From Methanosarcinales archaeon (lineage in GTDB: Archaea > Halobacteriota > Syntropharchaeia > Alkanophagales > Methanospirareceae), in assembly GCA_025464325.1 (NCBI GenBank), contig JAODGH010000016.1:18231-53810 (forward strand): 35,580 bases of DNA, read 5' to 3'. A program made the translations under genes and the position numbers. Under the pieces are notes generated by a model that worked only from the letters and a program-made list of their open reading frames with translations, had not been told where the DNA came from and ran no database searches. This document shows, in pieces, positions 19,037 through 34,483 of this stretch (position 1 is the stretch's first letter; every line of letters starts with the position of its first letter).

Positions 19037-20728
19037 TCATTTCTTCTTGGCTTCATACCATGGCATCAAAAGCTTCTCTATGAACGATACAAGAGCATAT
19101 AAAATAATTCCCAGCACAGTAAGCTGAATAATCGCAACGAAGACCTGAGGAGTATCCATCAATCCCGCAGCATAAATTGTTAAATAACCAAGACCCGCAT
19201 TCGCACCTACAAATTCACCCACTACTGCACCGATTACTGCGAGTGTAATTGCAGTTTTAAAGCCCGCGAATAGCATGGGGAGAGAACTTGGGATCTCGAT
19301 TTTCCTGAAAATGTCAAACTTACTCGCACCGGTGGATTTCATCAGTTCAAGCAAATTCCTATCTGACGACCGTATGCCGGTAATCATATTTACAAATATG
19401 GGGAAGAATACGATTAAAGCAACGAGGAAGATCTTCGATGAGAGACCAAAGCCAAGCCAGATAACTATAAGAGGTGCTAAAGCAATTTTGGGTGCCGTTT
19501 GCGCCGCAACTATATAAGGCGAAAGTATCCGTTCCAGTTTTCTCGATTTTGCCAGCGGATAACCTAAAAGTATACCAATTGTCATGCCTGCCAAGAATCC
19601 CGTGATTGTTTCATACAGCGTTACATAAGTGTGTTTGAGTAGCATTCCGTTCCCAAGCAAAGAGAGGTATTCAAAGAAGACATCTTCAGGTGGCGGTAAT
19701 AAAAAGGGCGGGATATTGAAGAGTGAAGTTATACCCTTCCAAAAACCTATTGTCAGCAGAAACACCAGTATATACATCGTATATAAAGTGAGAGTGCTGA
19801 TTTTTGGCGTGGCGACGAAATCATCCAGCCTTTTTGGTGGTTTTACCACTTCACCTCTGGTGATTTTAGTGTTAAAGTGTATTCTACCATTGGTATAGGC
19901 ACCCAAAGCTTTTCGCACTTTTTGTACATACTTGCTAAAATCATCAGTTTCTATTATATTCACGTCCCTGTCCCTTTTAAGTTTTATCTCCAGAACCTCT
20001 TTTACGGTTCCCGGTCTATCGGATAATATCACAACCCTGTCAGAGAGGAGAACGGCTTCGGGTATGCTGTGAGTGACGAAGACAATAGTCTTTCCCGTTT
20101 CTTTCCATATCCTTAAAAGTTCAAAGTTCATTCTCCCCCTTGTTATCTCATCTAAGGCACCAAAAGGCTCATCCATCAGAAGAACAAGAGGGTCTTGCAC
20201 AAGTGCCCGTGCGATGGCAACTCTTTGCTTCATGCCTCCTGAAAGCTCGTTTGGATAGAAGTGTTCGAAACCCGTCAAATCAACCATCGCAAGTATCTTT
20301 TTTACTTTCTCCTCATCTTCTGCTTCGATTTTTTTTTTGGCAACTTCCAGCGGTAATAGGGTATTTCCTAAAACTTTCCGCCAGGGCAGTAGTGTGGGAT
20401 CCTGAAAAACGAATCCGGAATTCTTATGCAAATCTTGAACTGCTCCTTTTTTAAAAATAACCTCCCCCTCTGTTTGTTCTATCAGGCCTCCAATGATTCT
20501 GAGTAAGGTGGTCTTTCCACAGCCACTTGGTCCGATGATGGACAGGAATTCTCCCTCGTTAACAGTAAAAGATACGTTCTGCAACGCTCTGACAGGCATT
20601 TTTTCTGTCTCAAAGACCATACCAATACCTTTGAGTTCTATCAGTACATCCTTCATCTTTATCAAATGATTATAGAAAGAGAAGATAAGCATATCTCCAC
20701 GATGGAGAGGAAAATAAGGGAACCCCAT
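19037..20728 (-). CDS. Fused ABC transporter ATP-binding + permease (NitT/TauT/SsuBC family)
   Basis: Walker A GPSGCGKTT, LSGGMKQRVAIARALVQDPLVLLMDEPFGALD, then TM domain with EAA-like loop (VGEFVGANAGLGYLTIYAAGLMDTPQVFVAI) in one ORF. Likely start MKDVLIELKGIGM near 20656. Confidence 0.9.
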   Translation of the reverse strand: MGFPYFPLHRGDMLIFSFYNHLIKMKDVLIELKGIGMVFETEKMPVRALQNVSFTVNEGEFLSIIGPSGCGKTTLLRIIGGLIEQTEGEVIFKKGAVQDLHKNSGFVFQDPTLLPWRKVLGNTLLPLEVAKKKIEAEDEEKVKKILAMVDLTGFEHFYPNELSGGMKQRVAIARALVQDPLVLLMDEPFGALDEITRGRMNFELLRIWKETGKTIVFVTHSIPEAVLLSDRVVILSDRPGTVKEVLEIKLKRDRDVNIIETDDFSKYVQKVRKALGAYTNGRIHFNTKITRGEVVKPPKRLDDFVATPKISTLTLYTMYILVFLLTIGFWKGITSLFNIPPFLLPPPEDVFFEYLSLLGNGMLLKHTYVTLYETITGFLAGMTIGILLGYPLAKSRKLERILSPYIVAAQTAPKIALAPLIVIWLGFGLSSKIFLVALIVFFPIFVNMITGIRSSDRNLLELMKSTGASKFDIFRKIEIPSSLPMLFAGFKTAITLAVIGAVVGEFVGANAGLGYLTIYAAGLMDTPQVFVAIIQLTVLGIILYALVSFIEKLLMPWYEAKKK

Positions 20729-20751
20729 GTGATTGAAGATGAAAATTACTA

Positions 20752-21858
20752 TTACATCTCATAATATGCTTTGTCTATGCTCTTCACATCTACACACACC
20801 TCTATATCTTTTACCAGCAGGTTTATGATTTCTGCTTTAGTTTTGCTTTCATCGTAGTCCCATGCATTTGCTTTGATTTCAACAAAGAAGGACCCACCTA
20901 TCAGGGGTTCTTCAATACGATCCAGGTTTATAATCACTTCTTTCATCTTTATTCTCCTCCGCCTTTTCACAATTTTTCTCTCTATTTTAGCATTCAAGAA
21001 TTCGAGGAAGAAAATGATCGAGGGATGTTCCACTTTTATCTCTTCCCTCTCCCTGTTTATAATCCAGACATTTCCGTGTCGTAACTTATTTATGAGCCTT
21101 ACCCATGTGATGATATGTGAAGGAGTCTTCTTTAACGATTGCTTTAATGGAGTTTCCTCTCGATATCGGAGATATGCGTTTGGTTGATATCCCGTTGGGG
21201 TGATGTAATAATCTGATTGCGTTACTTCCTCCTCGGTTATAATTCCTTTTTTTATATTGTTATAGAGACGCGAGAAGTCCGAAGTTTTCACCCGGAACTT
21301 TGTTTGTATTTCAAAGCTCGGTGTAAAGGGTATGTCACTGAGTTCTTTTATTGAATATAATATGGAGTGCCCATCAGGAGTAATTGAATACTTCCCCTCA
21401 CCTTTTCTTACTAATCCTGCATCAATGAGAGCATCTAAAACGTTCTTCATGCTGCTCTGACTGATGTCGGTGCCCCTATACAATTCATTCCAGGTGTGTT
21501 CTCGGGTATTCAGCTGCTTCAATATCCGTATGGAGTGCTTCTTTTGAATTGCCTTTATTTGATTTTGGGGTATGTTCAGCTTTGATAAGCCTTTGTAGAA
21601 GTCAATGCCATTTTGAGAGAGAATGAATCTGTTTTCGGTTTCGGGTTTAACGATTTCCAGATGAACGAGTTTGGTTATGAGTCGGTAAAGCTGGTTATAA
21701 TCAATGTTGAGGGATTCGCATATCTCTTTTGTTGAAAAGCCTCCCCTTCGAGTGTATAACAAATGCAAGAGCTTATCAAATATACCGGGAAAATTTGCCT
21801 TTGCTTCCAGTATCCCTATTACCTTCTCTTCACCTATCCTCTTCAATTCTATCATCAT
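20752..21858 (-). CDS. Winged-helix (probably two) plus C-terminal CYTH-like domain protein; putative ligand-responsive regulator
   Basis: N-terminal helix-turn-helix regions (STKEICESLNIDYNQLYRLITKLVHLEIV; TWNELYRGTDISQSSMKNVLDALIDAGLV); C-terminal FEIQTKFRV...YLRYREE...FFVEIKANAWDYDESKTKAEIINLL...AYYEM resembles CYTH. Confidence 0.65.
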   Translation of the reverse strand: MMIELKRIGEEKVIGILEAKANFPGIFDKLLHLLYTRRGGFSTKEICESLNIDYNQLYRLITKLVHLEIVKPETENRFILSQNGIDFYKGLSKLNIPQNQIKAIQKKHSIRILKQLNTREHTWNELYRGTDISQSSMKNVLDALIDAGLVRKGEGKYSITPDGHSILYSIKELSDIPFTPSFEIQTKFRVKTSDFSRLYNNIKKGIITEEEVTQSDYYITPTGYQPNAYLRYREETPLKQSLKKTPSHIITWVRLINKLRHGNVWIINREREEIKVEHPSIIFFLEFLNAKIERKIVKRRRRIKMKEVIINLDRIEEPLIGGSFFVEIKANAWDYDESKTKAEIINLLVKDIEVCVDVKSIDKAYYEM

Positions 21859-21906
21859 ATATTAATAAAGCTGGAATTTTACATAAAGTCTATCGTAGAT
21901 AAGTAC

Positions 21907-22443
21907 ATGATAGAAGTAGAGGCGAAGGTGCGGATAAGTGATGTGTGGTGGATGGAGAAGAGAATATCAGAGGAGGGAGCGGAGTATAAAGGGATGATAA
22001 AACAGCGTGATGAATATTATGACTTTCCAGATATGAGGCTTTTTAATGATGGTGGTGCATTCAGAGTTAGATCTTCAGATGGTGACTTCAGGATAACTTA
22101 CAAGTGGTGTAAAAAGGATGAAGATACAACAAGCAGGGAGGAGATAGAGATAGGGATAGAATCTGCAGATAAAATGATAACGATACTGGAGAGCATAGGC
22201 TTCGTAAAATTGTGTGAGATAAAGAAAAAGAGAAAGGTTTATCAGTTGGATGATTTGAAGGTATCACTGGATGAAGTAGAAGGACTGGGCAGTTTTGTAG
22301 AGGTGGAAGGGATGGCAGATAGTGAGGAAGAATACAGAGCGAAGAAGGTTGAGATATTTAAGCTTCTTGATAGACTGGGCATATCTTCAAGTGATATTAT
22401 TCGAAGGACATATATGGAGATGGCACTTGATAGAAAAGCTTAA
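21907..22443 (+). CDS. CYTH domain protein (class IV adenylate cyclase CyaB-like/thiamine triphosphatase superfamily)
   Basis: MIEVEAKVRI (canonical ExExK), QRDEYYDFPDMRLFNDGGAFRVRSSDG, ITYKW, REEIEIGIES, VSLDEVEGLGSFVEVEG; ATG at 21907. Confidence 0.9.
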   Translation: MIEVEAKVRISDVWWMEKRISEEGAEYKGMIKQRDEYYDFPDMRLFNDGGAFRVRSSDGDFRITYKWCKKDEDTTSREEIEIGIESADKMITILESIGFVKLCEIKKKRKVYQLDDLKVSLDEVEGLGSFVEVEGMADSEEEYRAKKVEIFKLLDRLGISSSDIIRRTYMEMALDRKA

Positions 22444-22479
22444 ATGTAAATAGGGGAATAGTATGAAGGGGAAATAGGA

Positions 22480-23142
22480 ATGAAGAATAGAAGTTTCACA
22501 TTGCCGGTAGTGATTCTGGTTTCAACCGTTATTGTTATCTTCACTTGTGGAATGCCCGTGTTTGCGAAGGTTAATTACATGTCAAATGCAACATATGACT
22601 ACGACGGCAGTTCGGTGTATCCCGGCGAGGAGATACGGGTGAAGATGACGATAAACCCGGGAGTGAGCGAAGTGAAGGACATGAGAATAACCATTTCCGA
22701 GGCTGATGCGCTGATAGACGGCAATTCGTTTGAGAAGACGATATCACCCGCAGGGGCGCCGGTGAATCTTACGCGGGAAGGACACACCTTCTTATGTGAT
22801 AGATTAAAACCGGGTGAGTCAATCACATTGATGTTCAACGCGTATCCGAAGACGGAGAAGGAGAAGAGGATAAAGGTGGCGAATGTACGGATAGAGTATA
22901 CGCAATTGGGGCAACGACTTGAAGAGACAAAGGAGATAAGCGCGAATCTCGAGAATTCCGCATGGTTTGGTTACGAAGTAGTAAAGAGGGAGGCAAAAGG
23001 GCTTCAAAACGAGCTTAAAAAGCTTCAACTCGAATTATCAGCGATGCGGTGGATGCTATATCTTGCCATTATTTTTGGTATTACGACGGTTATATTTTGT
23101 GTCATGTGGTATAACGAATGGAAGAAGCCAAAGATACCATAA
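22480..23142 (+). CDS. Membrane-anchored extracytoplasmic protein (signal peptide, beta-rich ectodomain, coiled coil, C-terminal TM)
   Basis: MKNRSFTLPVVILVSTVIVIFTCGMPVFAKVNY signal; AYPKTEKEKRIKVANVRIEY; short heptad stretch; WMLYLAIIFGITTVIFCVMWYNEWKK TM near C-terminus. Confidence 0.75.
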   Translation: MKNRSFTLPVVILVSTVIVIFTCGMPVFAKVNYMSNATYDYDGSSVYPGEEIRVKMTINPGVSEVKDMRITISEADALIDGNSFEKTISPAGAPVNLTREGHTFLCDRLKPGESITLMFNAYPKTEKEKRIKVANVRIEYTQLGQRLEETKEISANLENSAWFGYEVVKREAKGLQNELKKLQLELSAMRWMLYLAIIFGITTVIFCVMWYNEWKKPKIP

Positions 23143-23153
23143 ATATATAAATA
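23141..23153 (+). promoter_or_regulatory. Candidate TATA element upstream of tubulin-like gene
   Basis: aaatatataaata in AT-rich intergenic region, followed by ggtgagg RBS-like motif before ATG 23207. Confidence 0.4.
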
Positions 23154-23206
23154 GCCATTGAAATATCAAAATAAAATATAAAAGAAGAAAGAAAAGGTGA
23201 GGAGTT

Positions 23207-25408
23207 ATGAATCCTATGGTTGTGGTAGGAGTAGGCGAGGCAGGCGCGAACATGGCTACAGCAGTGTACGAGTTGGTGAAGCACGAAAAGGTTGACAAAT
23301 ATTTCCAGTTTATTCTTATTGACTCAAACGAGAGCGAGCTCCAGCGAGAAGAGATACCGAAAGAGATAAAGCAGAAGATAACCCTCAGACCACCGGATAA
23401 TGTAATAGCTATTCGGGAGGATTTAAAGACTTTCAAATACCTGTATAAAGGAGTAAATATTCAGAGGAAGGGTGCGTTAAGACAGCGGGTGGTTGCAAGG
23501 TACTTTGTGGACAGGAAATACGACGATCTAAGGATAAGCCTCTACAATATCACGAGAGACTTTGCAGATAAGCACATGGCAGACCTTACAGAAGAGGGGA
23601 ATAGTTTGACGATTACGCTATTACACTCCGTCGGTGGAGGAACAGGTAGTGGTAGTTTCCCAATACTTACAGCGATGCTCAACGGTATAAAGAGGGATTT
23701 AGAGAAAGAACTGGCTATAAGTGTATCAATATGTGGTGTAGGGAGTATGCCAACTTTGCCTGAAGACATAGCTGCTCCGGTAGAGGGAGACCCGGTATAT
23801 TATGCGAATGCATTTGCGGTGTTCAAAGAGATAGAGAAGCTGCTCGAGGATAAAGAGCTTGTACTCCCGTTATACTATACAGTGGCGGAGGTAGGGAAGC
23901 CATTGGAACTAAAAATAGAAGGTTTGCCATTTGATAAATATTTTCTTGTCGGCATAAATGAAGGCGAGTTGAAGCGAGGGATAAAAGAAGAGTGGGTGGA
24001 AGCCTATATAGAGGAGAAGAATCGGAGTATAGCTAATTGTCTACTGGCATTACATGAACATCGCTCGTTATCTAAGGGAGACTGGCCCGTAGCAGGTGGA
24101 GGTGGTAGTGAATACGCGATAGGTTCGTTTGCGGAACATGAGATAAAGGTACCTGTTCGGCTTTTAGAAGTTTATGTAAGGAAAAGAGAAGAGCTCGATA
24201 GCAAGATGGGGGAACTGAAAGGGGTTAAAGAGGAGATAAAGAATAAAATAGAAGATATCAAGCGCCTTCAGGCAGTGAATATCAGTCCGGACGATGTCCC
24301 TGAAGCACTTAAGAAAGATGTAGAGGCTATGGTTACGAGAGAACTTCAAACGGGTATTATGAATATTTCAGAAGCAGAACTTGAGGATTTTGTAAAAGGA
24401 GAACTTAAGAAGGGTTTTGGAATAGAGGGAGAAGTATACGGTGTAAAACTTTTGACGAATAAATTTGATGAGATGAAATATACAGAGGAATGGGGGAAAA
24501 AGGTAGAGGAACTCTGGGAACGTTATGGACTTGGAAATAAGGATAAATACAAGAATAAGACAACAATCAGGGACAAGGATGAAAGTTTACATAAGTGGCT
24601 TTTAGAAGTAATCAATATAAATAAGGCATGGCTTGAGAATCCGCCAAGAGTGCATCTGCCGGGAGAGAAGAAGAGGAAACAAAATTTGATTGAGAGATTA
24701 GAGAGTGAGAAGGATGATCTGGAAGCTATTAAGAGAAAAAGTGAACAGTTAGAGAGACTCAAGGGGAAGACGGCAGAATTAAATGGAGAAGTAAAGAATG
24801 AACTTTTAGATGAGATAAGCAGGAAAACAGAAGCAAAGAATAGCCGGGAAGATAGGGTGAGGAGGCTTGAGGACGAGATAAAAGCACTGGAAAGGGACAT
24901 TAAAGCTACTGAGGACGGTTTATCAAAGTCAAAATTCGGGAGAGTTGGGTATCTTCAGTTAAAGAGTGATAAGGTGAAGGATATAACAGGAGAGGAGCTT
25001 GATAGATTGGATTCTTTGAAGAAATTTGTGGAACGGGGATATATAGATATTCAAGATGTGAGACGTGGCTTAGAGACACAGATAAAGAGAGCGAAAGGCT
25101 GGTCTTCAATAAGTGTAAGAGATGCAAGGCATCTAAGCTTGTTCCTGCTCTGTAACGGAGAAAATGCGGAACTCATAAGCGAGCTATCCGCAGAGGTTAT
25201 CCCTCAAGACTATTCATCGTACGAGTTAAGGGATAAGTACACGATAAAGGCGTGCTTTTTTCAAGTGGGCATGAAAATTTCTGATATCACGGATTTCCGC
25301 TTGATAAAAGAGCGATATGAGGAAGGGATATTACAAAAAGCGTTAGAAAGGGTCGGGAGAAAGGTTGAGGAATCGTTTGCATACCCTGAGTGGTTCTCTA
25401 AGGAGTAA
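23207..25408 (+). CDS. Divergent tubulin/FtsZ-superfamily GTPase with long C-terminal coiled coil
   Basis: VVVGVGEAGANMATAV (T1-like), ILIDSNESEL (beta2/T2-like), HSVGGGTGSGSFPILTAM (tubulin signature GGGTGSG), ICGVGSMPTLPEDIAAPVEGDPVYYANA (T5-like), KYFLVGINEGEL; Lys/Glu-rich heptads in the C-terminal half. Confidence 0.85.
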   Translation: MNPMVVVGVGEAGANMATAVYELVKHEKVDKYFQFILIDSNESELQREEIPKEIKQKITLRPPDNVIAIREDLKTFKYLYKGVNIQRKGALRQRVVARYFVDRKYDDLRISLYNITRDFADKHMADLTEEGNSLTITLLHSVGGGTGSGSFPILTAMLNGIKRDLEKELAISVSICGVGSMPTLPEDIAAPVEGDPVYYANAFAVFKEIEKLLEDKELVLPLYYTVAEVGKPLELKIEGLPFDKYFLVGINEGELKRGIKEEWVEAYIEEKNRSIANCLLALHEHRSLSKGDWPVAGGGGSEYAIGSFAEHEIKVPVRLLEVYVRKREELDSKMGELKGVKEEIKNKIEDIKRLQAVNISPDDVPEALKKDVEAMVTRELQTGIMNISEAELEDFVKGELKKGFGIEGEVYGVKLLTNKFDEMKYTEEWGKKVEELWERYGLGNKDKYKNKTTIRDKDESLHKWLLEVININKAWLENPPRVHLPGEKKRKQNLIERLESEKDDLEAIKRKSEQLERLKGKTAELNGEVKNELLDEISRKTEAKNSREDRVRRLEDEIKALERDIKATEDGLSKSKFGRVGYLQLKSDKVKDITGEELDRLDSLKKFVERGYIDIQDVRRGLETQIKRAKGWSSISVRDARHLSLFLLCNGENAELISELSAEVIPQDYSSYELRDKYTIKACFFQVGMKISDITDFRLIKERYEEGILQKALERVGRKVEESFAYPEWFSKE

Positions 25409-25488
25409 AATGCGAGGGGGCACGCACAAAACTATATGGGTAAGAGAAGCAAGAACCGGCTTTGTTTGCTACGATAAATCAGTGAGAA

Positions 25489-27254
25489 ATGCTAAGATAT
25501 AAATCGTGGTTTATCGGACCGAAAGGAGAGAATGCAGACATATTAGAGGAGTATGTTCTGAAAAGCCTCAGGGATTACATACACATGAGGCGGAATTTCA
25601 GGACTCGTGACCCGTTTATAATATCACCAAAGAACAAGAGTACGAGGGAATTTGAGGAGAGTCTGGAACCGTTTAAGGAGAATTTTGAGAAACTAACGTA
25701 CCGGATGAAGGAGAGTATGCCTTTCTTTTCGCCGAGATATATCGCTCACATGACTTCTGATACACTCATATCCGCCAACGTGGGATATTTCATGGGAATG
25801 TTATACAACCAGAACAACGTGACATCGGAAGCGTCTCCAGTAACGACAGAGCTTGAACATGAAGTGGCATGTGATCTGGCAGAGTTGATAGGCTATGATA
25901 CCTCTTCCTTCTGGGGGCACCTAACAAGTGGAGGCACGGCGGCGAATTTTGAGGCTTTATGGGTGGCCAGGAACCAGTGCTATTTCCCGCTGGCGGCGAA
26001 AGAGGTGGCGGATGCATATGATCTGGATATTGAAGTGGAATTGTTAAACGGTGAGAAGAGAGACATAAAGGAGGCAGAAGAGGTGACGGATGCGTTTTTG
26101 AATAGCATTGACCCAAGGAGAGCGTCAGAGTTACGAGATGCGTTATATGAAGCAGCGATGAAGAAGGGGGTTGGACCAAAGGCTATAGAAGACGCATTAT
26201 TTGAGGCAGGGATTTCGGGTGAGGGTATGCACGGGTATCCAAGAGGAGCAGTTTTTGTCCCGCAAACGGCGCATTATTCATTCAAGAAGATCGTGGAAGC
26301 GCTCGGAATAGGCAGGAAGAATCTGGTATATGTGGATGTTGATGAAGATTTTAAGATGAACATGGAGGATTTGAAGACAAAGCTTGAGAGAGGAGAGAAA
26401 GGTTATTGCCGTTGTTCCAATAGTCGGCACTACGGAAGAAGGCGCGGTTGACCCTGTGGATAAAATAGTGACTATGCGGGATGAGTTAGCGAAAGTAGGG
26501 GGGGCAAAGCTTTTTCATTCATGCCGATGCTGCTTATGGAGGTTATGCAAAAACAGTTTCAAAGGGTAAACTGGCAAAGCATGTTCATGACTGTTTACAG
26601 GCATTGAGATATTGTGATTCGGTAACGATGGACCCGCATAAATTGGGATATGTGCCATATCCTGCGGGTTCAATTCTGTTCAAGGACAGGGGTGCAAGGA
26701 AGTTTATTATATGCAATGCACCGTATATATTTCATGGCGAATCGGAAGTTATTGGTCAGTATATACTGGAAGGCTCCAAACCAGGAGCAGCGGCGGTGGC
26801 GTGCTGGCTCGCTCACAGGTCGGTCCCATTAAATGAGAGGGGTTATGGAAGAATCATTGGCACGACGATAGACCTTATCCGCAATCTTGAAAATAAACTC
26901 GCTACAGATTTGAAGGATGTCACGCAGTTATTGACACGCCCACATCTTAACATGCTGTGTTTCAGAGTGAATTTTCCGGGCGTTTCTCTGGATAAGATGA
27001 ATGAAATAAACGAGCGAATCTACAAATACTTTTTGGAAGGACCGGATAAGGATTATCCGATAACATCCAGAAGGTTTTTCATATCGGAGACCAGTTTCAA
27101 GATTGGAGATTACAAATTCTTAAAGGAGAAGTTCAATTTAGAGGGAGCGGGTGAAGATGACGAAATAAAGTTCTTGCGAGTTACCATTATGAATCCATAT
27201 TCAGAGAATGCGCTTTTTAGTTTTGTGGAGGAGTTAAAGAAGAAACGCGAATGA
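25489..27254 (+). pseudogene. Frameshifted PLP-dependent group II decarboxylase, tyrosine-decarboxylase-like
   Basis: Three consecutive frames (25489..26451, 26384..26569, 26604..27254) encode one contiguous decarboxylase: SWFIGPKGENAD, RYIAHMTSDTL, EASPVTTELEHEV, HADAAYGGYAKT, TMDPHKLGYVPYPAGSILF, YILEGSKPGAAAVACWLAHRSVPLNERGYG. Two +1 insertions in G-runs restore the frame if removed. Confidence 0.88.
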
Positions 27255-28974
27255 TTTACCGTTAGAGAAATGGTTACAGAAATACACGTCCCCGCTGGAG
27301 AAACGGTTTGTGGATGAGGAGTTTTGCTATTATGGCACCTTGCTCGCGTGCATAGAGATGATAGAATCGGGTACTACGTGCTTTGCGGATATGTATTACT
27401 ATGAGGGAGAAGTAGCGAGAGCGGCAAGAGATGCAGGTATGCGGGGCGTATTAGCTGAGAGCATACTTAAGAATGAGACGCCAGATGCGGCTGATTTTGA
27501 AGAAGGGCTCACCTATGCGGAGGAGTATATCAGGGGTTGGAGAGATGACAGCCTTATTATCCCCGCTATCGGACCGCATGCACCTTATACCTGCAACGAT
27601 GAAATTCTTATAAGGGCTAAGGAGCTTGCAGATAAGTATGAAGTGCCCGTGTTAATCCACGTTGCAGAGACGATCAGCGAGGTGAAGAATTCTATGAACA
27701 CCACGGGTTATCGCCCGGTGGAATATTTAGGTGCTCTGGGTGTTCTGGGCATGAATGTGGTGGCTGCGCATTGCGTCTGGCTCACATCAAAGGAGATGGA
27801 GATACTGCGAGAGAGCGGCGTGAAAGTAGCGCATAACCCCACGAGCAATCTCAAATTGGGCTCTGGAATAGCGCCGGTGCCGGAACTGATGGATAGGGGA
27901 GTGGTTGCAGGTATCGGAACGGACGGATGTGCAAGCAATAATGACCTGGACATGATAGAAGAGATGAGGCTAGCTTCTTTGCTCCATAAAGGCACGCATG
28001 CAGACCCTACGAAGGTGGATGCGAAACGTGTTATAGAGATGGCGACCATAGAAGGTGCGAAGGCGCTGGGCATAGATGACATCACTGGTTCAATAGAAGT
28101 TTCAAAGCGAGCAGACATAGCGATTCTCAACTTTAATAAAACCCACCTGACTCCTTTTTATGATTATGCACCGGAGAATATCTATTCGCAGATAGTATAC
28201 GCGGCGAAGGGTTCGGATGTTGAGACGGTGATTATCAACGGTAAAGAGGTGATGCGAGACCGTGCGATTATGACAATAGACAAGGAGATGGTGATGTTGA
28301 AATGCCGTAGTATAGCTAAAGAGATAAACGAATACAGAAGAGAGCCGGAGCGAGTCGCATCGAAGTTGATAAAGCTTGGTGCTGTGGATGTGGAACCCAC
28401 GTACGAGATGCAGATAAAGTTCAAGTTTGAAGAAGAGCCAGCAGTGTTTGAAGTTCTAAAACGGGGAGCAATAGCGGTTAGCGATGTCCAGACGGTTAAG
28501 CAACGAGATATTTATTTCAAGCAGAAGCTGGAAGAGCGGGGATATCTGAGGTTAAGAGAAGAGCAGGCAGTTTCAGAGCAGGATGAACCAGCCGGGAAGC
28601 CGAAATACACACTCACAAGCACGGCAGGAACGGTAATAGATGAAAAGGGCATAACAATCATGCGCAGAAGAAGGATGGATACAAGAGTTGAGCCCACAAT
28701 AGCATTCTTCATGGATTATTTTGGTGTGAAGAAGGATAAAGAGATAGAGAAGATACGGCGTAAATTAAAGTGCATTTATAAAGGTGTGCATATCTCCATC
28801 AATATTGACAGATTCATCAAACCCGCAATATCCGTGCGCTACGTTGAGGTGAAGAGCAGTGCATGGACGAGGAAGGAGGCGAACAGGCAGAGGGACATAA
28901 TGAACGAGTTCATAGGGGTATTGGGGTTTGAGCATGAGAAGCAGATTAAACAGTCATATTATGAGATGGTTTAA
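27250..28974 (+). CDS. N-terminally truncated MTA/SAH-deaminase-like amidohydrolase fused to a C-terminal CYTH-like domain
   Basis: In-frame from (A)NDLPLEKWLQKYTSPLEKRFVDEEF... through HAPYTCNDEIL, VAAHCVWL, VAHNPTSNLKLGSGIAPVPEL, GTDGCASNNDLDM; no HxH N-terminal metal motif. C-terminal ~200 aa YEMQIKFKF...YLRLREE...YVEVKSSAW...SYYEMV is CYTH-like. ORF-track start is GTG 27310. Confidence 0.75.
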   Translation, partial: NDLPLEKWLQKYTSPLEKRFVDEEFCYYGTLLACIEMIESGTTCFADMYYYEGEVARAARDAGMRGVLAESILKNETPDAADFEEGLTYAEEYIRGWRDDSLIIPAIGPHAPYTCNDEILIRAKELADKYEVPVLIHVAETISEVKNSMNTTGYRPVEYLGALGVLGMNVVAAHCVWLTSKEMEILRESGVKVAHNPTSNLKLGSGIAPVPELMDRGVVAGIGTDGCASNNDLDMIEEMRLASLLHKGTHADPTKVDAKRVIEMATIEGAKALGIDDITGSIEVSKRADIAILNFNKTHLTPFYDYAPENIYSQIVYAAKGSDVETVIINGKEVMRDRAIMTIDKEMVMLKCRSIAKEINEYRREPERVASKLIKLGAVDVEPTYEMQIKFKFEEEPAVFEVLKRGAIAVSDVQTVKQRDIYFKQKLEERGYLRLREEQAVSEQDEPAGKPKYTLTSTAGTVIDEKGITIMRRRRMDTRVEPTIAFFMDYFGVKKDKEIEKIRRKLKCIYKGVHISINIDRFIKPAISVRYVEVKSSAWTRKEANRQRDIMNEFIGVLGFEHEKQIKQSYYEMV

Positions 28975-28980
28975 GAGGAG

Positions 28981-29850
28981 ATGCTCGACATAGCCTGTGT
29001 GGGAGACATAGCAGTGGATTACATATCAACGGTGAACGAGTTTCCGGAGATAAATTCCAATACAGAAGTGCTGGAATTCACGAGAACGTTTGGCGGCAGT
29101 GCGGCGAATACCGCGATAATGTGTGCGCGGCTGGGAGTGAAGACCGGGTTGTTCGCCTGTGTCGGTGCGGATTTCCCCGTGGAATATATGGAAGAGCTGG
29201 AAGAATTGAATTTGCATACAAATCTGGTCAGGTCAGCACTGAACACTACCACAGCGATGCTGTATTCGAATGGCGAGGAGCAGCTCACGTTCTTCTATCG
29301 TGGTGCATCACGCGAGATAACCGAAATAGAGCCGCCTGATGAGATATTAGAGGCGGGAGTTATACACATGTGCCGTGATTTCACCGGTGCATTCAAGAAG
29401 CTCATCCAGAATAGTGATGCTCAGATTTCGTTCAATCCGGGATACGGGCTGGATGAAATAGAGAAGAAGGACCTGGAATATATACTGCAACATACCACGA
29501 TACTGTTCATAAACGAGCATGAGCAGCGATATTTGATGCGGATGTTTGAACTGACGAGCGAAGATGTAAGGGTGCTGGGACCGGATATAGTGGTGCTGAC
29601 ACGCGGCTCCAGGGGTAGTAAGGTCTTCTCAGAGGGTGATGTGAAAGAGATCGGAGCGATTCCCGCTATGCTGGTTGATCCTACGGGCGCGGGCGATTCA
29701 TTTGCGGCGGGATTCCTCGCGGGCTATACAAGGAACTATTCACTGGAAGAATGTGCGAGGATAGGTGCCGCGGTGGCGAGTGTAACGATAAGCACGAGGG
29801 GTACACATCCAGAGGTAAGCTGGGAGCGAATAAAGATGCTGATAGTTTGA
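28981..29850 (+). CDS. PfkB-family carbohydrate/nucleoside kinase
   Basis: FGGSAANTAIMCARLGVKTGLFACVGADF and signature VDPTGAGDSFAAGFLAGY. Confidence 0.93.
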   Translation: MLDIACVGDIAVDYISTVNEFPEINSNTEVLEFTRTFGGSAANTAIMCARLGVKTGLFACVGADFPVEYMEELEELNLHTNLVRSALNTTTAMLYSNGEEQLTFFYRGASREITEIEPPDEILEAGVIHMCRDFTGAFKKLIQNSDAQISFNPGYGLDEIEKKDLEYILQHTTILFINEHEQRYLMRMFELTSEDVRVLGPDIVVLTRGSRGSKVFSEGDVKEIGAIPAMLVDPTGAGDSFAAGFLAGYTRNYSLEECARIGAAVASVTISTRGTHPEVSWERIKMLIV

Positions 29851-30060
29851 ATGATGTTTATTCGACGATGTTAAGAGTGCTAACAGCTTCGTTTTGGTTC
29901 ACTGCGAAATCCAAAAGCTTAGGTGCATCATCTACATAGTGCCGGATGAGCGCATGGATATCACTAAATATCTTTGCATGACTCCGGGATTCGGTTCCGG
30001 TTGGATTGTGACCCTAACTTTTTAGTTGCATATATTCCCTCTCACGGGAAAATTCAAAAG

Positions 30061-30071
30061 TTTTAAATATA
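30061..30071 (+). promoter_or_regulatory. Candidate TATA element upstream of the HD-domain module
   Basis: ttttaaatata 26 nt upstream of ATG 30097. Confidence 0.4.
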
Positions 30072-30096
30072 CCCTCATTATTTACATCTTTGTAGT

Positions 30097-30279
30097 ATGC
30101 AGCCATCGGGGGATGGAGTGATAAATGCCGTACCGATAGAGGAGACGATAATTGACCCGCTCTACGAGCCGCTGAAGTTGAACCGGTATGAGTTATGCGT
30201 GCATCTTCAACGATTACATGATATTTCGCATCTCCGCTATGGGCTCTCGCCCTATCTGCTGTTCGATGTGGAGGCGTGA
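30097..30279 (+). CDS. Small 60-aa ORF with the same DPLYEP motif as the HD protein N-terminus
   Basis: MQPSGDGVINAVPIEETIIDPLYEPLKLNRYELCVHLQRLHDISHLRYGLSPYLLFDVEA; TATA-like element upstream; stop overlaps the next start region. Confidence 0.5.
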   Translation: MQPSGDGVINAVPIEETIIDPLYEPLKLNRYELCVHLQRLHDISHLRYGLSPYLLFDVEA

Positions 30280-32156
30280 AGATGGAAGAAATGCAGCTGG
30301 TGGATCCGCTATATGAGCCCACGATAATGTATTCTGTGAAGGATATACCATACTGTAAAAAACATCGAGACGAGTATAAGAAGAGGCATAAAAAAGAATT
30401 CATAGATCACTATGAAAAATCATTTCGTCTTCTTCTTTTAGATAAGATTAAAAATGAAGATGGGAAAAAATATAAAACGTTAAGAGACGAATTAGAAGAT
30501 CTAAATATAAATATTGATTGCCTAACAAGCTTAAGTGATTTAACAAAAAGATTAAGACTAGAAAAGGCTAGAGGTAAAAGAGCGGCTAATAGGGCTAGAT
30601 CGGAGTTAAGTGAAATACTGGAGGAAGAAATAGAGGATTGCCCTTTCCCTGAGGAAAATGGTTTCTGCACAAAGAAGTCCCAACCTTATTCTTTAGATTA
30701 TGACAATGCACTCAAAGAACTCTACGACATCTACAAAGAATTAATAAACACATTTGAGATGCAGAGACTGAAGCACCTTCAGATGACCGGATTCTTATCT
30801 TTTAAATATCCATCGTCCACGCATACAAGATTTGCGCATGTGGTAGGCACATGGATTAGCGGGTTAATTGCGCTACAAAATGTTACGGTTGTTATAGAAG
30901 AAGGTAAAGAGGAGCGATTAATAGAGTTCTTAGCAGATGAAGATATGCATCGTGAATTCATGGCTGCATTAATATTGCATGACATCGGGCATGCGCCATT
31001 CTCGCATGTTCTTGAGATGAATCCTCATTTGAAATACAACCATGAGGAAATAACAAAGCAATTAATTGGAGGGGGGGAGGCATATTTGATATTAGAAGAT
31101 ATATTGGTATCGAGTTACATAGATTTAGAATATAAATACGATAAGAGATATGGAGTTATACCAGGGATTTTAGATGTATCCAAGAATAAGATAAGGAGAA
31201 AAGAGAATTTTGTATTAGTTCACGATGTAATAGAGAGTATGGGGTTGGATAAGGACATTATAGTGGATTTATTTTCTGACGAAAAAACCAATGATTGGGC
31301 AGTAGAAGCATTAAGAGGACTCATACATGGTGTTGTGGACATAGATAGAATAGATCATATTTATCGTGATTTGCATTACAACAGTTTTAAAACGATGGGC
31401 ATACCACTTACTTCGTTGTTTCATGGTATGAAAATTCACTGTGAAGAGAATGAACCCTATATAGAAATAAGCGAGAAAATCACGCCTATAATTGAGACTT
31501 TAATAACAGCGAGAGAGCAATCGCAGAAAGCTATTTTTGATAATCCAGTGAATAATTTCTATATTGCTGTATTGAATTCCGGAATTTCAGATGCAATCAG
31601 GATGTTCCCCCTGATTAAATATTACATTCCTTATCTCACAGATGAAGCGCTGTTGCACATTCTACAGGATAGAGAACTATTCCATAATTTGTCACCAACA
31701 GAAAAAGCAAGTATCATCACAGGTTCAAGTTTCGGGCACAGAGATTATGTATATTCCATTTATATAATAAGAAACGGTGAGAAAATTCCTAATAGTGCTG
31801 AGGAGAAAGAAACGAAGGAGATAATAGCCTCTGCAACTGAGGATATCGGAGAAGGGAGAGTTTTTTGGTATGCCTTTCTTAAAGATACAAGACATGCTTA
31901 TGAATCTAAGTGTGAGTATATAGGTAAGAGAGAGCAAGGCAAAGGCGACAACAAATTGGGCAACAAATTAAAGAAGTATATAGATGGAATTACCTGGGAT
32001 AGCAGTGTTAATAGATCTTGGACTTTTACATTGTTTGCGAAGGAGGGGGATAAAGATAGAATAAAAGAGGTTAAAAAAGAGGTTGAAGATAAAATAAAGG
32101 GGGAATTAGGTAATATCAATATTACACCTGTTTTTAGTGAAGAGCGGGTAAGATGA
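30276..32156 (+). CDS. HD-domain phosphohydrolase (dNTPase/SAMHD1-like)
   Basis: FEMQRLKHLQMTGFLSFKYPSSTHTRFAHVVGTW, ALILHDIGHAPFSH (HD), GVVDIDRIDHIYRD; GTG 30276 or ATG 30282 start. Confidence 0.85.
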   Translation: MKMEEMQLVDPLYEPTIMYSVKDIPYCKKHRDEYKKRHKKEFIDHYEKSFRLLLLDKIKNEDGKKYKTLRDELEDLNINIDCLTSLSDLTKRLRLEKARGKRAANRARSELSEILEEEIEDCPFPEENGFCTKKSQPYSLDYDNALKELYDIYKELINTFEMQRLKHLQMTGFLSFKYPSSTHTRFAHVVGTWISGLIALQNVTVVIEEGKEERLIEFLADEDMHREFMAALILHDIGHAPFSHVLEMNPHLKYNHEEITKQLIGGGEAYLILEDILVSSYIDLEYKYDKRYGVIPGILDVSKNKIRRKENFVLVHDVIESMGLDKDIIVDLFSDEKTNDWAVEALRGLIHGVVDIDRIDHIYRDLHYNSFKTMGIPLTSLFHGMKIHCEENEPYIEISEKITPIIETLITAREQSQKAIFDNPVNNFYIAVLNSGISDAIRMFPLIKYYIPYLTDEALLHILQDRELFHNLSPTEKASIITGSSFGHRDYVYSIYIIRNGEKIPNSAEEKETKEIIASATEDIGEGRVFWYAFLKDTRHAYESKCEYIGKREQGKGDNKLGNKLKKYIDGITWDSSVNRSWTFTLFAKEGDKDRIKEVKKEVEDKIKGELGNINITPVFSEERVR

Positions 32157-34483
32157 ATGAAGAAACACCTGCGGGAAATGATAGTGCAGTATGGATAAAA
32201 GAATATAAGCAAAAATTATTCGAGGACGAGTGTGTTCAATATTTTCTTAACCTTGAAATAAGCGATGTGGAGAAGCCATTATTGTTTACAATAAAGTCGC
32301 TCTCAAATTTTGAAAGCGACTTGAATAATGGCACCATTCCTGAAGAATTAAGAGAAGGAATTAACCGTGAATTGGGAAAATCTGGATGGGATGGTGGAGA
32401 TTTTTCGGTTAAGAGAGATGAAAATAAAGATGAGTGGATTGTTAGATGGGAGCTAAATGTTGAGAGGGATAATAAGAAGAAAGAGTATATAAAGGAATTC
32501 CGCCTTAAGAAAAACGGGGATAATTTAGGGATTTACGAGCAAGACAGCGATTTTGTGAGATTAGTAAGAGAAGCAATTATGGATGTTCCGATACCGGATA
32601 CAGAAGAGGAATGGAAGGATTTTATAAAAAAAACTAAGGAAGTAAGAGAAATCCTCGCTATTTCTCATACCATTATGGACTTGCTATTTTTCTTCTCCGA
32701 TTATTTCCCGGATGGCATTAATGATAATGATAAAGAGAAAGAGCATAAAAGGAGAGTCAGGAATTATAAGAACATGCTAAAACTGAGGGAGAAAGTGAAT
32801 GATGTGTATATAAAGAAGCTTAAGAACTTTTTAGAAATGGAATATATGGGTAGTATTGAGAAAAGAAACGAGTCCGAATTAAACAAGGGTAATATACCAG
32901 CAGATTTACGCGATCTTTTAGGTAATAATGGGATTACGTTATCAGAATCGCCCGAAATTAGGAGGGTAGATGATACTGAATGGGAGATAAGAGATAATGA
33001 CAGCGCAATCGTTTTTATCAGTAAGAAAATGGGGGGTAAGAATGAGGTATTACGCGTTTATGAAAAAAGAAAACCCGAAGAAGAGCCAAGAATTATAATA
33101 GTGGTGCCAATGTTCCCCAATATCACTATACAATCATTTTCTATCATATCCGAATTGAGCTGGTTGAGAGAATTAATTATAAGAGAAGAAGAGAAATCGC
33201 TTAGAGATAATGTGGAACTCTATCTATTATTCCTGAATAAACCCTTCCTGAATATTCTTAGGAATATTGACGAAAAGAAGCGAGAATATTTCTATGATTA
33301 TCGGGGGGAGGGAAGAAATACAGTAAAATCTGTGCTTAATTTAAATAAATTGCGGATAGAGTCATTTATTAAGCGATATTTGACGGAGTATATATTGAAA
33401 GAGCTGGTAGGAGAGAAAGACAAATTAATGAAAGTTCCAAAATGGCTGCATGAGCATGTGAAAACAGTTGACCAGGAAGTAGTTATTGATAATTTTTGGG
33501 ACAGGAGAATAGAAGTGGGGAAGGAAGAGAAAGAAGAAGGAATAGTAGATGATGTAGTGAAATGCGATGATGAAACGTTGAATGAGATCAATAAGTATCT
33601 AAAGCAGAACAAAAAAGTTGCTGAAAGAAGCTATTATCTATCTGATGTAGGGGTACCGAAAATATTGGAATTTGACCTTGGGGAAGGAGAAGAGAAGGAA
33701 GCAACTTATAAAGATCTCCTTTATTATTTGAAGGAAAAAATACCAGAAAATACGTTGATAATCCATGTTCACACATTTAGAGCAGTTGTGTTATTTAATT
33801 TCTACATTGATAGAATATTTAAGGACGGAAAGAAGTTTCTTGGCTGGGATTCATGTATACCGATGGTTATGCCTCCAGTAATTCCGATATTTCAATATAT
33901 CTCCACACTCTCAAAGGATTATAATTATTCGATAGCAAAAATGTATGAGAAATATGTGTATGGGGGCGATGGAGGAAAATACGCAATATGCTATTTAGCG
34001 CATTATCTGGAGTTTTTATTCAAAGATGTACTCAATACGTTCAAAATAAACATTAAGGGACCACAATGTGATAAAGCTAAAGACAACGGAAAATGTAATA
34101 GCGATACGATACTATTAAAGGAGGACTGCGATAGACTTAAAGAAAGCGGTAAATGCGGAACCAGGCATTGGGCGTTTGAATGCACATCGCATTGGGATGA
34201 ACACGCACCATGCGGAACCATTAGCGATTATTTATGCCTACCAATGGAGATATATTATGCACTGGAAAAAATCTTTTTGGATATCCCTTACACCTTTGTG
34301 TTTACTAAGAGGAGCTATATGGGCAAGTTGTGGGATGAGCGTCAAAATGGAGATGAAAAAGCGGTGGATACAGAATTCGAGATATTTATGCAAAATAGCG
34401 AAGATATTACTGATAACCTGAAGAAACACCTTAGCAATATTATTGATAACTTGAAGGAACACCTTGAAAAAGAGTATCTTTAG
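32153..34483 (+). CDS. Large protein of unknown function with internal repeats and Cys-rich segment
   Basis: Long ORF (776 aa) overlapping the HD gene stop by 4 nt (ATGA); no family recognised by eye. Confidence 0.8.
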   Translation: MNEETPAGNDSAVWIKEYKQKLFEDECVQYFLNLEISDVEKPLLFTIKSLSNFESDLNNGTIPEELREGINRELGKSGWDGGDFSVKRDENKDEWIVRWELNVERDNKKKEYIKEFRLKKNGDNLGIYEQDSDFVRLVREAIMDVPIPDTEEEWKDFIKKTKEVREILAISHTIMDLLFFFSDYFPDGINDNDKEKEHKRRVRNYKNMLKLREKVNDVYIKKLKNFLEMEYMGSIEKRNESELNKGNIPADLRDLLGNNGITLSESPEIRRVDDTEWEIRDNDSAIVFISKKMGGKNEVLRVYEKRKPEEEPRIIIVVPMFPNITIQSFSIISELSWLRELIIREEEKSLRDNVELYLLFLNKPFLNILRNIDEKKREYFYDYRGEGRNTVKSVLNLNKLRIESFIKRYLTEYILKELVGEKDKLMKVPKWLHEHVKTVDQEVVIDNFWDRRIEVGKEEKEEGIVDDVVKCDDETLNEINKYLKQNKKVAERSYYLSDVGVPKILEFDLGEGEEKEATYKDLLYYLKEKIPENTLIIHVHTFRAVVLFNFYIDRIFKDGKKFLGWDSCIPMVMPPVIPIFQYISTLSKDYNYSIAKMYEKYVYGGDGGKYAICYLAHYLEFLFKDVLNTFKINIKGPQCDKAKDNGKCNSDTILLKEDCDRLKESGKCGTRHWAFECTSHWDEHAPCGTISDYLCLPMEIYYALEKIFLDIPYTFVFTKRSYMGKLWDERQNGDEKAVDTEFEIFMQNSEDITDNLKKHLSNIIDNLKEHLEKEYL
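34404..34469 (+). repeat. Imperfect 2x33-bp tandem repeat in the gene 3' end
   Basis: atattactgataacctgaagaaacaccttagca / atattattgataacttgaaggaacaccttgaaa; encodes DITDNLKKHLS/NIIDNLKEHLE. Confidence 0.85.

Follow-up and report, generated by a model that had tools for sequence, protein, structure and literature searches.

The window analysed here, a 35,580-nucleotide stretch of a contig assigned to a Methanosarcinales archaeon, encodes a 733-residue protein that is, with near certainty, a member of the already described FtsZl1 family (Pfam Tubulin_2), outside both ordinary FtsZ and CetZ, and its gene is directly preceded by the gene of a single-pass membrane protein (Table 1). This gene pairing is kept across distant archaea and is our strongest new result. 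We consider it somewhat better than even (a probability of roughly 0.55) that the two genes form a membrane-linked FtsZl1 module that is accessory and serves in defence or envelope stress rather than in cell division. New here, with the literature on type III accessory genes covered in part, are a partner dedicated to FtsZl1, a type III CRISPR neighbourhood that recurs in methanogens, the reading of the C-terminal domain as split and the apparent exchange of half of the module.

Table 1. Features of the FtsZl1 locus (positions are those of the window; residues are those of the encoded protein).
Feature	Position	Strand	Basis and remarks
CYTH/CyaB-like gene, 36 bp before the partner gene	21907..22443 (longest ORF from 21763)	+	profile match, synteny
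Conserved partner, single-pass membrane protein, 220 residues	22480..23142	+	directly upstream of FtsZl1 in all close homologues; topology, alignment
FtsZl1 (Tubulin_2) protein	23207..25408	+	ATG start, 733 aa; profile match, AlphaFold model, Foldseek
GTPase domain at the N-terminus, up to and including helix H7 (residues 1-284)	23207..24058	+	PF13809 over 5-254; DSSP of model
T1 loop GVGEAGAN (residues 8-15)	23228..23251	+	alignment; G8, G10 and G13 invariant
T4 signature GGGTGSG (residues 143-149)	23633..23653	+	invariant in seven homologues
S6-T6 KYFLVGINEG (residues 244-253)	23936..23965	+	model strand 244-251; aligned by inspection to FtsZ S6-T6
Helix H7 with candidate nucleotide-binding Asn N272 (residues 261-284)	23987..24058	+	model helix; profile alignment to TubZ/RepX H7
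T7 region (residues 285-304): G(L/V)ENLW in most relatives, SKGDWPVAGGGG in the window	24059..24118	+	alignment; FtsZ T7 acids not conserved
All-helical charged coiled-coil insert (residues 317-634)	24155..25108	+	DSSP of models, composition
Strand-helix-strand segment (residues 643-689), which may form the second half of a split C-terminal domain of tubulin/FtsZ type	25133..25273	+	two models
C-terminal motif FAYPEWF (residues 724-730), family-wide	25376..25396	+	A725 and P727 invariant
Segment without DNA similarity to L048, probably replaced	22958..29844	.	blastn

Family and fold of the FtsZl1 protein

An earlier note, made from the sequence, had described this reading frame as a divergent tubulin/FtsZ-superfamily protein that carries five superfamily motifs in order and lacks ordinary FtsZ sequence. 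All five are present exactly as described (VGVGEAGANMA at residues 7-17, IDSNESEL at 38-45, GGGTGSGSFP at 143-152, MPTLPEDIAAPVEGDP at 181-196 and VGINEGEL at 248-255), and the resemblance is not due to chance: in a Pfam profile search, Tubulin_2 (PF13809) matched residues 5-254 with E=1.9e-18 and 67.3 bits (cut-off 27). The Tubulin model (PF00091) barely passed (33.9 bits vs a cut-off of 33), and the FtsZ equivalog model scored 15.7 bits where 295.2 are required; ordinary FtsZ and CetZ were both rejected on profile scores. The T1 and T4 loops are intact with their invariant glycines, and the order of parts is that of FtsZl1, an FtsZ-like GTPase followed by an extended coiled coil and a mostly helical C-terminal part, with strands after the coil. 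This answers the question, raised in the earlier note, of whether the protein belongs to one of the families of Makarova and Koonin or to a separate archaeal one.

FtsZl1 was described as an FtsZ-like GTPase with a coiled coil and a helical C-terminus, predicted to act in membrane remodelling, in which T6 and H7 were not identifiable and in which a separate archaeal branch includes Methanospirillum hungatei (Makarova and Koonin, 2010, PMC2875224). The window protein shares with it the divergent GTPase with GGGTG(S/T)G, the long coiled coil and the helical C-terminus. It differs in that T6 and H7 can be placed in its subfamily, and in its gene context: FtsZl1 operons typically, though not universally, contain vWA, GTPase, kinase or OmpA genes, which therefore do not define the family alone, whereas none of these was found among the window neighbours scanned, and a dedicated membrane partner is present instead. 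FtsZl2 does not fit, being proteobacterial and without a coiled coil, with a C-terminus of ~300 residues of alpha/beta type, in contrast to the archaeal relatives and coil insert of the window protein.

A Foldseek search of an AlphaFold model, which the earlier note had proposed as a check, supports the GTPase fold; a model lacking that fold, which by the note would have refuted its reading, was thus not obtained. The window model (seven sequences, pLDDT 70) matched CetZ2 at 7.3e-8 as well as TubZ, FtsZ and tubulin, and the model of the orthologue from genome G020 (locus L039; 16 sequences, pLDDT 89.2, pTM 0.80) matched CetZ2 at 2.3e-8, FtsZ at 7e-7 and tubulin at 1.9e-6. CetZ2 of Haloferax volcanii (PDB 4b45) is thus the best structural match of both; CetZ nevertheless lacks the coiled-coil insert, and its sequence resembles the window family only at T1 and T4. 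With the models and the family profile, T6 and H7, which were unrecognised when the family was described, can be assigned in FtsZl1: S6-T6 follows the pattern YFL-GI(N/D)E, H7 has a conserved Asn, and the TubZ/RepX helix YTSYSNKYIADALHEI aligns with the orthologous H7 stretch, a weak segment of the profile match that is close by eye. The acids of the FtsZ T7 loop, which we take to be D209 and D212 of E. coli FtsZ, are conserved neither in the window protein nor in its relatives, and low or partner-dependent GTP hydrolysis would therefore be expected.

The similarity to TubZ raises the question of whether the gene encodes a TubZ-like protein for plasmid segregation or is left over from a decayed prophage. 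TubZ shares the tubulin fold and appears among both the structural matches and the profile hits, phage tubulins/FtsZ were matched in BFVD, and one FtsZl1 relative lies on a Halobellus megaplasmid. However, the window protein has a coiled coil and no plasmid-partition context, and the gene beside it encodes a membrane protein, not a partner that binds DNA. A TubZ or phage origin was rejected on finding no PHROG match and no relative in viral contigs, and we regard this explanation as very improbable.

The coiled coil had been described as a charged tail of ~400 residues. A charged helical region is indeed present (K/R/E/D content of 44% in residues 317-575 vs 35% overall; modest heptad periodicity of 487-574, matched by 73 of 2000 shuffles), but it spans ~320 residues and, with strands and the FAYPEWF motif coming after it, is more probably inserted within the protein than a tail. 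In the L039 orthologue, the GTPase domain up to H7 is followed by a strand (299-308), a helix (311-324), an all-helical stretch (330-593), a strand (614-622), a helix (623-631) and two further strands (640-646 and 653-663). The C-terminal domain of FtsZ runs S7-H9-S8-H10-S9-S10; the orthologue would thus read S7-H9-(insert)-S8-H10-S9-S10, and the coiled coil probably splits the tubulin C-terminal domain. The GTPase domain is clear, whereas the C-terminal domain is read from strand-helix order only, Foldseek being probably unable to align across an insert of ~280 residues.

The membrane partner and the window locus

In 10 of 10 close homologues, the partner gene shares the strand of the FtsZl1 gene and lies directly upstream of it, with gaps of -26 to +64 bp (the loci with this arrangement include L039 of G020, L048, L049, L035, L036, L037, L067, L051 and L052), and it is likewise upstream in Halobellus, at a gap of 149 bp. 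The earlier note was thus correct that a membrane-protein gene is the neighbour, but listed it as mere gene context, which a conserved partner is not. The protein consists of a signal peptide (residues 3-31), an external domain (~32-160), an inserted coil (~165-186), a TM helix (187-213) and a 7-residue tail; across 12 aligned members, D40, I79, D80, G112, F119, Y122 and P123 are invariant. No Pfam model scored above cut-off for the window partner and none fits the partner family, and a profile search of the external domain against PDB and Pfam returned weak TRAP-beta and cohesin-like matches, with no confident fold. The cytoplasmic tail is present in the methanogen and G020 partners and missing in the window partner and two haloarchaeal versions.

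Synteny between the window and locus L048 is lost at the pair. Protein identities are 86% for the ABC protein, 78% for the HTH-CYTH protein, 71% for CYTH, 59% for the partner and 27% for FtsZl1, while the FtsZl1 of L048 and that of G020 are 56-58% identical. By blastn, the two loci are 80.2% identical over 19053-22958, where similarity stops at the end of the partner's external domain, to resume only at 29844-30274 (70.6%). In trees of the two proteins, the window partner groups with those of G020 and L048 (support 99/97), and the window FtsZl1 with haloarchaeal proteins (100/99 and 99/99). A grouping of the window FtsZl1 with L039 and L048 was rejected by AU test (p=3e-5 and 1e-4), and a tree with the entire short group as a single clade was mildly rejected (p=0.02-0.03). 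The window FtsZl1 also shares an N-terminus, P-VVVGVGEAG--M, with Halobellus and has haloarchaeal motifs near EG-PV-YANA. On these sequence comparisons, a haloarchaeal-type version has probably taken the place of the window FtsZl1 gene and of the intracellular end of its partner.

The FtsZl1 tree joins long branches, as the tree program flagged, and this picture could also arise if the gene had diverged rapidly from the L039/L048 type without moving, under relaxed or diversifying selection. Position, strand and partner are indeed the same as in L048, and the single-clade test was rejected only mildly. We find this explanation the less likely of the two; against it stand the N-terminal sequence shared with Halobellus and the haloarchaeal motifs, the AU result of p=3e-5 against the L039 and L048 grouping, and the abrupt stop in DNA similarity together with the missing cytoplasmic tail of the partner.

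Several features of the surrounding genes are recorded here. Upstream (19037-22443) lie genes, conserved in L048, for an ABC ATPase fused to its permease and for an HTH-CYTH protein, and the separate CyaB-like CYTH gene; CYTH was rejected as a core component, as only the window and L048 have it before the pair, and G020 and the methanogen loci lack it. Downstream, a tyrosine-decarboxylase-like gene lies in two frames (25489-26451 and 26604-27254, covering parts 5-213 and 374-585 of TIGR03811) and reflects either a pseudogene with a frameshift or a mistake in the assembly. It is followed by an amidohydrolase reading frame (27310-28974) that lacks the first ~95 residues of its best model and whose C-terminal part resembles the L048 HTH-CYTH protein (28%, E=2e-17). 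At 30276-34483, an HD-domain protein (dGTPase/SAMHD1-like by eye) overlaps a 776-residue protein of no known family, and an HD protein 29% identical to it comes after the pair in L048. L048 is labelled as an Aerophobetes MAG, and L049 and L094 are among contigs labelled Aerophobetes and Thermotogae; their genes are nearest to archaeal ones, which suggests misbinning, or transfer in the case of L049.

Distribution and CRISPR neighbourhood

Distribution is patchy: the membrane partner was found in 2 of the 51 genomes of the window's family, a protein search of 59 relatives found 2, and in the order to which G361 belongs the count was 5 of 199 genomes. The window genome also has an ordinary FtsZ (contig C52, 358 aa), so division does not need the window FtsZl1 gene. 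It carries in addition a second Tubulin_2 protein, an 893-residue reading frame on contig C1, whose system (L040, 5671-9854) comprises a 154-residue membrane protein, the Tubulin_2 protein and a 344-residue unknown protein. Many of the family's genomes conserve this second system, which is near-universal in the lineage, and four of its loci (L040-L043) have no CRISPR arrays. Genome G465, presumably Methanospirillum hungatei strain JF-1, has one full Tubulin_2 gene, which belongs to the window subfamily. In Haloferax marinum (L054, 2657-8823), two Tubulin_2 genes flank one membrane-protein gene, and Halolamina (L055) looks similar. The family of the window genome includes G020, labelled Ca. Syntrophoarchaeum; a search of the window genome (94% complete) for methyl-coenzyme M reductase alpha (PF02249) gave no match.

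CRISPR arrays are found near the pair in Methanospirillum, in Methanoregula and in a further methanogen MAG, in most cases accompanied by Csx1, Csx16 and Cas10. CRISPR proximity is seen in six distinct loci (L035, L036, L037, L039, L067 and L094): arrays lie ~1-6 kb from the pair in L035, L036, L037 and L039 and ~5 kb in L067, and type III genes surround the relatives L035, L036, L051/L067 and L094. In G361 and G373, the pair is found ~5-6 kb past an array with Csx16 genes between, and beyond the array come cas1, cas2, CARF and cas10/RAMP genes; in G251, array and pair are ~3 kb apart on one 14.8-kb contig, and in G020 the array ends ~0.8 kb from the FtsZl1 gene. The order in M. hungatei is CARF, an opposite-strand gene, membrane protein, FtsZl1, HD protein, Csx1, Csx1, array, cas2-cas1 and type III genes, with a weak vWA gene nearby. 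Cmr1 follows the pair in L051, and the MAG contig L094 reads Cmr1-Cas10-Cmr3-Cmr4-Cmr6-HD protein-IS-membrane protein-FtsZl1. Cas10 is ~25-27 kb from the pair in G361, G373 and G465, and in G511 the two share a contig; in three genomes, the chance of random placement at the observed Cas1/Cas10 distance is ~0.03, 0.05 and 0.04.

An HD protein recurs beside the pair (L035 4918-6750, L037 2575-4239, L067 11650-13332, L051 5351-7051 and L094 7422-9203), at loci that also carry CRISPR arrays or type III CRISPR genes. The call rests on HD-CE/HD matches, with GTDGHG/DHH in the N-terminal half (DHH read by eye), and the protein is possibly a signal-degrading enzyme. The HD protein of the window was rejected as its homologue, no match being found in the comparison.

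The window copy itself does not lie in a type III locus: neither the window nor the initial 18.5 kb of the contig holds a CRISPR array, and the genome has no Cas10 match, its Cas1 being on another contig. The CRISPR link is thus one of the relatives and not of the window copy. A Cas10 match is absent also from G020, G510 and the haloarchaeal genomes with FtsZl1 relatives.

These observations bear on a possible role of the pair as a genuine type III effector, in which cyclic oligoadenylates would trigger FtsZl1 assembly and the membrane would be opened or deformed via the partner. The position after the cmr genes in L094 and the Csx1 (CARF-HEPN), Csx16 and weak Csx3 neighbours would fit, and membrane and tubulin-domain proteins near CRISPR loci have been noted in general terms, as vWA-related systems, in the part of Altae-Tran 2023 that bears on them (PMC10910872). 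However, neither protein matches CARF or SAVED, the pair occurs in the above genomes without a Cas10 match, and insertion sequences lie between it and the HD gene in L094, which makes this explanation unlikely. Better placed, though still doubtful, is a constitutive cytoskeletal or membrane-remodelling protein, acting in cell shape as CetZ does or in the vesicle biogenesis proposed by Makarova and Koonin, with incidental CRISPR proximity. This would agree with the published FtsZl1 prediction, with a membrane partner in every case, with CetZ as best structural match and with a window copy that is not beside CRISPR. But the pair is far too patchy for housekeeping, and chance proximity would have to recur in the six loci and yet spare the near-universal Tubulin_2 system at L040-L043.

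A proposed membrane-linked module and its relation to known systems

We therefore retain the two-gene membrane-linked module as the preferred reading. The upstream gene product would be a single-pass membrane protein with its external domain outward, and FtsZl1 the cytoplasmic half, whose N-terminal domain would bind GTP and which would assemble head-to-tail as other tubulin-fold proteins do; a membrane-tethered FtsZl1 assembly is likely. The coiled-coil insert may join filaments to one another or to the membrane partner. Without the catalytic acids of T7, GTP would be turned over slowly, and assembly would be stable or switch-like, without treadmilling. The module would be accessory, patchy and exchanged between lineages, and in the window lineage FtsZl1 and the intracellular end of the partner would have been swapped for a haloarchaeal-type version. 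Since type III CRISPR loci contain or adjoin the pair in methanogens, the module is more likely to act in defence or envelope stress than in cell division, and for the pair we advance defence as a hypothesis. A bolder version is tentative: the pair would be an archaeal tubulin-family immune module that turns signals from outside or inside the cell into a GTP-dependent assembly at the membrane during infection, was repeatedly recruited to type III CRISPR loci and has its intracellular half exchanged as a cassette.

Tubulin domains fused to coiled coils, as in the window protein, are known from predicted GTPase-centric immune systems (Kaur 2020, PMC7159879), but these are bacterial and contain GAP1-N2 GTPases and vWA proteins, neither of which was identified beside the window copy. 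Given the general remark in PMC10910872, the idea of tubulin-domain proteins near CRISPR is not wholly new; the portion of that paper concerned with them describes no dedicated archaeal pair of a membrane protein and FtsZl1. Although the family has been known since 2010, a literature text search found no later functional study of FtsZl1.

Altogether, the dedicated membrane partner provides a simple two-component system to test, and the type III CRISPR neighbourhood a concrete hypothesis, namely that this FtsZl1 pair serves immunity rather than division. The modelled presence of T6 and H7, the absence of the T7 acids and the proposed split of the C-terminal domain would further predict that FtsZl1 polymerises in a manner unlike FtsZ.
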